Below are positions 46,725-62,175 of a stretch of 64,000 nt of DNA, one piece after another. This DNA is from Lophium mytilinum (lineage: Eukaryota > Ascomycota > Dothideomycetes > Mytilinidiales > Mytilinidiaceae): NCBI GenBank assembly GCA_010093605.1, contig MU004183.1:1612001-1676000 (forward strand), in the 5' to 3' direction. The notes beneath the pieces are model-generated. The model searched no databases and was not told where the DNA came from. It worked only from the letters and a program-made list of their open reading frames with translations. Positions within the stretch are counted from its first letter, which is position 1; each line of letters begins with the position of its first letter. The position numbers and the translations under genes were made by a program.

Positions 46725-47310
46725 CTTCGTGGCTAGAGTATCTCCATGAAGCTGGGGGATGGTGTGTTGTTTCAGGGCCCTGAGTCTCTCCCGCTTCCGC
46801 TCCGCAATTTCTTGGCACTCCCCAAAATGGGCACCTCAGATATAAGTTTCCGGTCGCAAGGGGTTTGTTGGTACTCAACTTTGCTGATTTTGTTTGACGG
46901 CCTGTAGTTGTTTTTTCGATCGTTCATGTTGAGATTTCGTCGGTTGCGAATAGTTCTGGCCTTGTCTTGTACCACCCAGCGGTCACTGATAGAAAGTTTT
47001 CATTCGCGAGCCTCAAAGAGCTCGGCTTCTGTGATCTTAGTGCTCCTTGAGATGGTCCTCAATAAGAAATTGCTGTGACTTGACCCTGGATTCCCCGTAA
47101 TGCCTGATGTACTACGGTGATGGCTCGTGCCCCGCTGAATTGCACTAATAATCAAAAAGAATATTACCAAACCGCCCCAAACGCAAAGCTGATGTTCTGG
47201 TATGATCTCTTAACGTAGAAATGCCAAATATACGCAAAAAAATTGGTGTTCCTCTCGCAAACCGAGCCGCGGTGGTTCACTGACGCTGGAGACCCTCCCA
47301 ACCCACCACC

Positions 47311-47316
47311 AAAAAA
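47311..47316 (-). terminator. RNA polymerase III T-run
   Basis: Six T residues on the minus strand lie 12 nt past the discriminator base of the tRNA-Ala gene, as expected for a Pol III terminator. Confidence 0.6.
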
Positions 47317-47328
47317 TCAATCCTACTC

Positions 47329-47460
47329 TGGAGATATGGGGGATCGAACCCCAGACCTCCCGCAAGCTATATGCAAAGCGGGCGCTCTACCACTGAGCCT
47401 TGGCGCTTACGTCAGCTATTATATATGAAGATAGGCCACGGAGCCACTTACTATATCCCC
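47329..47460 (-). tRNA. tRNA-Ala (UGC), interrupted by a 53-nt insert
   Basis: Reading the minus strand, 47452-47460 gives GGGGATATA (nt 1-9) and 47398-47329 gives nt 10-73: D-arm GCTC/GAGC, anticodon stem CCCGC/GCGGG with TTTGCA and anticodon TGC, a 7-nt intron TATAGCT (47371-47365) after position 37, variable loop AGGTC, T-arm TGGGG-TTCGATC-CCCCA and acceptor TATCTCC plus A. The separated 5' piece pairs perfectly with that acceptor strand (one G-U). Between nt 9 and 10 lie 53 extra bases (47399-47451). Without them this is a normal tRNA-Ala. As it stands the immediate upstream 7 nt cannot pair. It may be a pseudogene, or a gene requiring removal of the insert. Confidence 0.75.
47399..47451 (-). 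other. Spliceosomal-intron-like insert within the tRNA gene
   Basis: On the tRNA strand the 53-nt insert begins GTAAGT, has TAGCTGACG (a CTRAC branch-site match) with the branch A about 15 nt from the end, and ends CCAAG before GCTCAG. Length and signals match the protein-gene introns of this window (for example 53 nt in eIF3e). It is not at 37/38, the only position where the tRNA endonuclease normally removes introns. Its function is inferred from signals only. Confidence 0.55.
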
Positions 47461-47879
47461 GAATTTCGATGGTTGCAAAAATTATTCAATATATATACCG
47501 TAAAAAAAGAACAGATCAAAACTCTGGGGTGGCGGTGAAAGCTCTCCTACACGTCATTGGCTATAGATCATTGAAACCGCCGCAGAAATTGCTTACAGGT
47601 ATAGTATAGGTTCCATGGGACCCACTCTCCAATGCGGGGTCTACAACGCCTTTTACAGCTTCCAACCCCACAAGGTAGGATACATAATCCGAAAAATCTA
47701 GTGCATTCTCTTTGAATGTACGCACATAACTCTACTCCATTAGAGCAGAATTGCTAAATGCTGTGGCATATGAAAATTCATGTTGGTTGCGGTTCGGACT
47801 ACTAAGCGAATGTCCCCCAACACCTCCCCGCTCCATCCCACGCCTCCGAACCGCCAGTTTCCCTCACCATAAGCACCCG

Positions 47880-48190: not shown

Positions 48191-48720
48191 GCCTCCTAGG
48201 CTTAAAGTGTTCTCAAAGCGGCGATGTCGTTGTGTACACTCTATAGATGAACCATGAGGACTTGACCTAGTTTTGAGCTTTGGAGAGCCTCCTGGCCGTT
48301 TGACCTAGAGATTGTGAGGGATATAGTTCGTCCGGCGCTCTAAGCTAGCCGCGTGGCGTTCGAATCAAGTTTACACCTTCAAGAGCCTCCTGGACGTATT
48401 GATATTGAAAAGCGAGTAATGTAAGTCTTTGCAAGTTTCAAATTTGCATCACAGAACTCGTTATTGTTTACGGTTTTTAGGGCCTCCCGGACGTATTAGA
48501 ACTAACTTTACGGAGGAATAATGTACAAGTTCCGCGTTTTAATATAGGACTTAGAAGCTGGTAGCTGCTCATAAAAGGTATAATCTTGTTAAGATCATGT
48601 AAATAACTTAGGAGTCAGGACTCGGAAATTGGTAGCTTCTTCATGCCCTTGAGAGGCTCCTGGGCGCATATCCTTCAATGGGCGAGCAACGAAATTGCGA
48701 TCAAGGTGCAAGCAGACGAT
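48191..48720. repeat. Degenerate ~97-bp tandem repeat, about 5 units
   Basis: A GCCTCCTGGACGTATT-like box recurs at 48191, 48287, 48385, 48482 and 48655 (spacings 96, 98, 97, then 173). The third, fourth and fifth boxes also share following sequence such as GCGAGTAATG..GCAAGT. Stops occur in all frames, so it is not coding now. Confidence 0.55.
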
Positions 48721-60750: not shown

Positions 60751-62175
60751 ATGGCAGACACCACCACCGACAGCGGGGAAGACATCGCGACCCAATACGA
60801 CCTTCTGCCGAAGCTGATCCAGAACCTGGACCGCCACCTAATCTACCCGCTGTTCAACTTCACCTATGGCGCCAACGAGGATGGAGAGCAGTCCCAGGAG
60901 AGCAAGGAGATATTCCTGCATCTGCTCAAGCCGACCAACATGATCGACTACGTGAGCCAGCTGGAAAAGGACGTGAAGGGCCTTGACGAAGTCCCCGCCG
61001 AGTACAGCACAAAGAGGGAGAGCACGCTAAAGACGCGGGACCGGTTGGAGCAAGAGACGGCCAGGATAATAGAGCTGTTGACCGATGAAACGGTCATCAA
61101 CGCGCTCAGGAGCGACAAGGTGGCCAACATGAACTACCTGAAGGAGAATTTCCAAGTCACAGACGAGATGGTCAACCAGCTCTGGGAATTTGGAAACTTC
61201 CAGTACAGCTGCGGCGTGTACGACCAAGCCGCTGAGCTCCTATACAGGTTCAGAGTCTTGGTACATTAACCCATATTCAACAAGTTCACAACTCCGGCTA
61301 ATTTAGAGGGCAGTCCACCGACAACGACAAGGTCGCCGAAGCCACCTGGGGCAAGCTAGCCTGCGAAATCCTCAGCGCGAACTGGGAGGCCGCCATGGAG
61401 GAGATCACAAAAGTGAAGGAGTCCATCGACACACGGCTCTTCAACAACCCTCTCGCCCAGCTCCACCACCGCACCTGGTTGATCCACTGGTCTCTGTTCC
61501 CTTTCTTCAACCACGACGCTGCGAAGGAAATCCTTACCGAGATGTTCTTCTCGCCCGCCTACATTAACACTATCCAGACAAACTGTCCCTGGATCCTCCG
61601 CTACCTCGCCGTCGCCGTCATCACGAACCGCAACCGCAACCGCAACTCGAATCAATATCAAAAGCAGCTCAAGGACCTCGTGAGAATTGTGCGACAAGAA
61701 GGCTACGAATACCGCGACCCTGCCACAGACTTCATCAAGGCGCTCTACATTGACTTTGACTTCGAGGAGGCACAAAAGAAGCTCTCGGAGACCGAAATCC
61801 TCCTCAACAATGACTTTTTCCTCGCCAACTCCGCCGCTCCTTTCGTGGATGCCGCACGCCATCTCATCTCGGAGACATACTGCAAAATTCACCAGAGGAT
61901 AGACATCAAGTAAGGCACAATCTAGCACTGATTTTCATTCCACTTAACTAACACTCTTCAGGGACCTCTCCACCCGCCTCGGCCTCACCCAAGACGAAGG
62001 CGAGAAATGGATCGTCAACCTGATCCGCGACACCCGCGTCGATGCAAAGATCGACTACCAAGCCGGCACCGTCGTCATGAACCACCCGCCCCAGTCCGTC
62101 TACCAGCAAGTGATAGAGCGCACCAAGGGCGGCTTCTTCCGGACCCAAGTCCTCAGCGCCGCTGTTGCGAAATGA
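60751..62175 (+). CDS. Translation initiation factor eIF3 subunit e (Int6)
   Basis: Exons 60751-61260, 61314-61909 and 61962-62175 give 439 residues, the normal length. eIF3e is a PCI-domain subunit of eIF3, which recruits mRNA to the 40S ribosome. What I see: the N-terminus [26 protein letters not shown] (~11-36), then [73 protein letters not shown] (across intron 1), [54 protein letters not shown], and the C-terminal PCI winged helix [56 protein letters not shown]. Identity is firm. Confidence 0.96.

Follow-up and report, generated by a model that had tools for sequence, protein, structure and literature searches.

In a filamentous ascomycete, a nuclear gene for tRNA-Ala(UGC) may have gained a 53-nt GT-AG spliceosomal intron between nucleotides 9 and 10, besides carrying a 7-nt intron at the canonical 37/38 position; we put the chances of this account as a whole at about even. 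The gene occupies 47460-47329 on the minus strand of the 64-kb stretch of DNA analysed here (the window), where it is flanked by genes for a Per1-like protein and HMG-CoA synthase. Its anatomy and the splice signals that it carries are plain from direct reading (Table 1), and they make a strong sequence case for interpreting the 53 nt as an intron, which is the best-supported reading. More tentatively, and with a chance that we set a little short of even, we propose that a working tRNA is matured from this gene by two unrelated splicing systems, with the spliceosome removing the 53 nt, which perhaps carry an A-box-like promoter element of their own, and the tRNA endonuclease removing the 7 nt. 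If true, this would be a case of spliceosomal intron gain in a nuclear tRNA gene, and it would mean that a fungal spliceosome is able to process a tRNA precursor whose first exon is very short.

Table 1. Features of the interrupted tRNA-Ala(UGC) gene and its surroundings (window coordinates).
Feature	Position	Strand	Remarks
Possible Pol III TATA element, TATATATATT	47488..47497	-	-37 to -28 from nt 1; putative role
CAA, possible transcription start	47475-47473	-	at -15; putative role
Exon 1, tRNA-Ala nt 1-9, GGGGATATA	47452..47460	-	7/7 pairs to nt 66-72, G3:U70; 9-mer unique in window
Insert between nt 9 and 10, putative spliceosomal-type intron	47399..47451 (53 nt)	-	GTAAGT start, CTGAC, AG end
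A-box-like element within insert, TGGCTCCGTGG	47436..47446	-	one mismatch to consensus
Putative branch site CTGAC	47411..47415	-	A at 47412; 13 nt from A to insert end
A-box as left after insertion, AGGCTCAGTGG	47390..47400	-	one mismatch to consensus
tRNA-Ala nt 10-73, split by 7 nt at 37/38	47329..47398	-	ARAGORN with both inserts out; Rfam tRNA
Canonical-site tRNA intron TATAGCT at 37/38, presumably of tRNA-endonuclease type	47365..47371 (7 nt)	-	ARAGORN, intron fixed at 37/38
B-box, GGTTCGATCCC	47340..47350	-	present
T6 run, possible Pol III terminator	47311..47316	-	13 nt past tRNA; putative role

The 5' end of the tRNA is supplied by a short piece upstream of the insert. As the earlier note had claimed, direct reading finds 53 nt inserted between nucleotides 9 and 10 and an upstream piece whose seven pairs, one of them G-U, make the acceptor stem whole (G1-C72, G2-C71, G3-U70, G4-C69, A5-U68, U6-A67 and A7-U66). 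The sole G-U pair is 3:70, which we take to be the alanine identity pair, and the same piece, GGGGATATA at 47460-47452, also brings U8 and A9. It is present in a single copy in the window, both strands searched. Heptamers that can form pairs with the 3' acceptor strand number 75 in 128 kb (both strands), ten of them with TR next (exon 1 included), and the odds of meeting by luck a 9-nt piece that fits in the 150 nt or so upstream are roughly 1%. A chance fit of this piece was considered and judged unlikely, as the 9-mer is unique and the gap between it and nucleotide 10 independently has the ends of an intron.

With both inserts removed, the sequence has the cloverleaf, UGC anticodon, G3:U70 pair and B-box expected of a functional tRNA-Ala, and ARAGORN reads it as a clean 72-nt tRNA-Ala(tgc) in which all four stems are paired. 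When the 53 nt alone were deleted, the program returned tRNA-Ala(tgc) with a 7-nt intron if introns were allowed and, if they were disallowed, a tRNA whose loop was too long and whose type it left unresolved. The earlier claim that deletion of the 53 nt restores a textbook tRNA is right to the extent that ARAGORN then reads tRNA-Ala(tgc), but the result is clean only when the 7 nt are also taken out. Likewise, 47398-47329 had been assigned to nucleotides 10-73, which is correct for the tRNA body but overlooks seven extra nucleotides in the anticodon loop (47371-47365). The 7-nt insert is short yet within range, since canonical eukaryotic tRNA introns span 6-133 nt according to the accessible part of PMC4090602. 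The uncut gene misleads the standard tools. ARAGORN in bacterial mode found no gene in it as it stands, and with introns allowed the program wrongly called a tRNA-Ser(aga) with a misplaced intron of 43 nt or, when given the entire window, a tRNA-Ser with a 1,733-nt intron; such a wrong tRNA-Ser call could be carried by automatic annotation. The Rfam tRNA model matched 47407-47329 at 37.4 bits (gathering threshold 29) and mispaired the 5' acceptor strand; this was the only Rfam match in the window at E values up to 1.

To score the splice signals, a small weight-matrix model was built from eight spliceosomal introns of the window (45-87 nt), hand-picked from several dozen candidates of an open-frame scan, the rest being dropped as unsupported. 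Ungapped alignment of the junction to solved proteins backs four of the eight (three in HMG-CoA synthase, one in the ornithine monooxygenase); restored frames are the basis for another three (two in the NRPS, one in a fatty-acid-hydroxylase gene) and open frames alone for the last (61910-61961). A third NRPS intron was left out of the modelled set. Finding introns by codon usage was unproductive because codon bias is weak, giving no candidates in one run and four non-overlapping ones of seven in another. The insert scores 16.3 (5' site 9.0, branch 4.6, 3' site 2.8), inside the leave-one-out range of 13.3-19.8 for the modelled introns, on a model that is coarse because eight introns are few. 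As the ends of the insert are set by the tRNA and not by splice signals, the score is a fair test of those ends. Counting the insert itself, only four of the 127,894 53-mers on both strands of the window score as high or higher, as do 71 of 22,601 GT..AG pairs lying 45-90 nt apart, and the strict motifs (GTAAGT, CTRAC at 8-30 and AG) occur together in two of the 127,894 53-mers, or in six with GTRNG; these odds overstate the case somewhat because it was an odd appearance that led to the selection of this locus.

The insert lies in the sense orientation relative to the tRNA and reads GTAAGT...CTGAC...CCAAG, so that the GTAAGT, CTGAC and final AG described in the earlier note are all there on direct reading. 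Its length of 53 nt falls within the 45-87 nt of the modelled introns, and two of those eight share its GTAAGT. The branch A had been placed about 15 nt from the insert end; the correct figure is 13 nt after the A at 47412, compared with 8-18 nt in the modelled introns. The branch motif of the latter is CTAAC in seven cases and CTAAT in one, and CTGAC is found in none. On the exon side of its 5' site the insert has ATA, where AG is usual. The proposal that the insert is a spliceosomal intron is partly supported, by its length, 5' splice site, branch-like site and AG and by the negative outcome of the tests of the main alternatives, of which that for a bulge-helix-bulge is weak; the branch motif, which has no counterpart among the eight introns, and the ATA on the exon side speak against it.

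The 3' end of the insert is less than uniquely marked by signals of this kind. An AG does end the insert precisely at the tRNA boundary, as had been claimed, but splice signals by themselves would also allow a CAG at 47393, which lies in the D arm six nucleotides beyond 47399 and outscores the border AG (18.4 vs 16.3) when 5' site and branch are kept unchanged. Under these conditions, a TAG at 47387 ties with 47399 at 16.3. Distance from the branch A favours 47399, which at 13 nt is inside the modelled 8-18 nt; it is 19 nt for 47393 and 25 nt for 47387, both outside that range. Of these three sites only 47399 yields a tRNA, and use of the CAG at 47393 would destroy it. A further AG at 47406 is 6 nt past the branch A, closer than in any modelled intron; its tie at 16.3 comes from a sham branch, CTATC, because the model scores CTGAC the same as CTATC, which is without a branch A.

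The putative TATA element, B-box and T6 run are placed as in a Pol III gene, their promoter and terminator roles being presumed. We propose that Pol III would start about 15 nt ahead of exon 1 and stop at the T6 run, that the spliceosome would excise the 53 nt much as it excises the intron of S. pombe U6, that tRNA endonuclease and ligase would take out the 7 nt, and that end trimming would then give tRNA-Ala(UGC). Through the insertion the A-box has come to lie about 53 bp further from the presumed start. Matches to the A-box as good as TGGCTCCGTGG or better number 161 in 128 kb, corresponding to about a 5% chance of one in 53 nt.

Folding of the precursor gave a lowest-energy structure of -45.3 kcal/mol, in which exon 1 is paired with TATCTTC of the insert and the cloverleaf is not formed, a point against the proposed path; when the cloverleaf was imposed and the insert left as a loop, the fold reached -40.2 kcal/mol. 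Stability is at the level of shuffled sequences (z -0.70; 47 of 200 shuffles fold as well). In the stretch 47460-47427 (minus strand), GGGGATA of exon 1 pairs at seven of seven positions with the TATCTTC (G-U allowed), and GTAAGT lies in an open loop of the lowest-energy fold. Going by how closely the insert matches the acceptor end, such pairing of exon 1 with TATCTTC would arise by luck in about 2.5% of cases, and it could either favour or impede splicing.

Another explanation is that a spliceosomal intron was inserted recently and that the gene is dead, with Pol III misinitiating, or splicing absent or directed to another AG, and other copies of tRNA-Ala(UGC) sufficing. A dead gene copy is a live chance, if on the unlikely side. 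According to the accessible part of PMC4090602, an insertion in the D or T arm of a eukaryotic tRNA gene is in most cases presumed to be the sign of a pseudogene, and both the better-scoring CAG at 47393 and the displaced A-box would fit such an outcome. Against it, neither the tRNA body and G3:U70 nor the B-box and T run bear signs of decay, although a recent insertion would show none yet. It is a good deal less probable that the 53 nt are an unrelated insertion with intron-like ends by chance, leaving the gene a pseudogene. Intron-like signals are short, disrupted tRNA genes are numerous and this locus was picked for its odd look, all of which such an insertion has in its favour; it has to contend with the four 53-mers in 127,894, insert counted, that score as high, and the insert has neither target-site duplication nor terminal repeat. 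The end of the insert shares no nucleotide with the left flank and its start shares one (G) with the right flank, and repeats of at least 8 nt were absent from 47300-47500. An origin from a transposon was considered separately and, as far as the window goes, rejected, the border identity being one G at most, with no terminal repeat found and no nearby repeats. A search for a second copy of the insert within the 64-kb window gave a best score of 13, compared with 12-17 for 20 shuffles.

We regard it as improbable to a marked degree that the insert is a non-canonical tRNA intron like those of nucleomorphs and Cyanidioschyzon, removed by the tRNA endonuclease. Ectopic tRNA introns do occur in those algae, some of them without a defined bulge-helix-bulge in the accessible parts of PMC4090602 and PMC3978253; here, no 4-bp central helix, which 3-nt bulges should flank, was found at 9/10, and an endonuclease intron would make the GTAAGT...AG mere chance. 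In that search for a bulge-helix-bulge at most three of four pairs formed at any offset tried and two of four at the standard offset, a weak test because the canonical 7-nt intron likewise reaches at most three of four. Least probable of all, and in our view scarcely credible, is that the insert is what remains of a degraded duplicate, tandem or partial, of this tRNA gene. It contains TATCTTCA, which matches the tRNA 3' end at seven of eight positions, as well as the A-box-like TGGCTCCGTGG and a stretch that aligns to tRNA nucleotides 7-27. An 8-mer equally close to the tRNA 3' end is nevertheless held by 2.5% of the 53-mers in the window, and a wrecked copy leaves the exact 9/10 borders and GT-AG ends unexplained. 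Descent of the insert from this tRNA was also assessed in its own right and rejected, as the similarity is not significant (444 of 4,000 random 53-mers from the window and 388 of 4,000 shuffles align as well).

A gained spliceosomal intron, the reading that we prefer, has parallels in other non-coding RNA genes. U6 snRNA of S. pombe is a Pol III transcript from which the spliceosome removes an mRNA-type intron, according to the accessible part of PMC8917221. Like the tRNA it is a small stable RNA made by Pol III; the differences are that U6 is itself a component of the spliceosome and its intron is known to be excised, whereas the host here is a tRNA gene and splicing is predicted. Spliceosomal introns have also been described in ascomycete rRNA genes (Cubero 2000; Bhattacharya 2000; as cited in the accessible part of PMC11889510). 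These too are introns of spliceosomal type in non-coding RNA genes, but rRNA genes are multicopy and transcribed by Pol I, whereas the insert studied here interrupts a tRNA gene with an internal promoter and leaves a first exon of 9 nt. The ectopic tRNA introns of nucleomorphs and Cyanidioschyzon merolae are similar in lying outside 37/38, and a canonical intron is sometimes present as well (PMC4090602 and PMC3978253, accessible parts); unlike the present insert, with its GT-AG ends, branch-like signal and, by the weak test above, no bulge-helix-bulge, they are ascribed to the tRNA endonuclease. Introner-like elements are a route of intron gain in fungi, including Dothideomycetes (PMC4457414, in the part accessible), but they form multiplied families in protein genes, whereas this insert lies in a tRNA gene and has no second copy in the 64-kb window.

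The open-access literature yielded no paper describing a tRNA gene with a spliceosomal intron, judged by title or abstract start among the matches listed and with subscription papers and preprints outside the scope; to the extent that open-access text can be searched, this agrees with the earlier note, which knew of no established case. The archaeal tRNA-gene introns listed in the accessible part of PMC11782384 include none of spliceosomal type. A review states that it is the tRNA splicing endonuclease that recognises the introns of pre-tRNA, in contrast to those of pre-mRNA (PMC4390854, accessible part), and the accessible description of tRNAscan-SE 2.0 limits eukaryotic tRNA genes to one intron and describes a non-canonical search for archaea (PMC8450103). 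The present gene differs from the canonical eukaryotic arrangement of one intron at 37/38 in having two inserts, of which the 7-nt one is at 37/38. As tRNAscan-SE 2.0 assumes one eukaryotic intron, tRNA genes of this kind may be overlooked in fungal genomes. If the 53 nt are spliced, the gene would break both the separation of tRNA from mRNA splicing and the one-intron limit for eukaryotic tRNA genes, and would offer an intron gain outside coding sequence that can be dated. Pattern searches of virus and prokaryote contig collections gave no matches, nor did the neighbouring Per1-like protein in virus contigs; this was expected and is uninformative on fungi, because the collections are without fungi.

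The window also contains genes for a large NRPS, an ornithine N5-monooxygenase, the Per1-like protein and HMG-CoA synthase, with short introns that have CTAAC branch sites. The NRPS (24092-45163) has adenylation, condensation and carrier domains and lies near the L-ornithine N5-monooxygenase; together the two look like a hydroxamate siderophore locus. In the intergenic region beyond the tRNA, at 48271-48670, there are four direct 32-nt repeats with 66-78% identity to the reference copy, spaced at 98, 97 and 173 nt.
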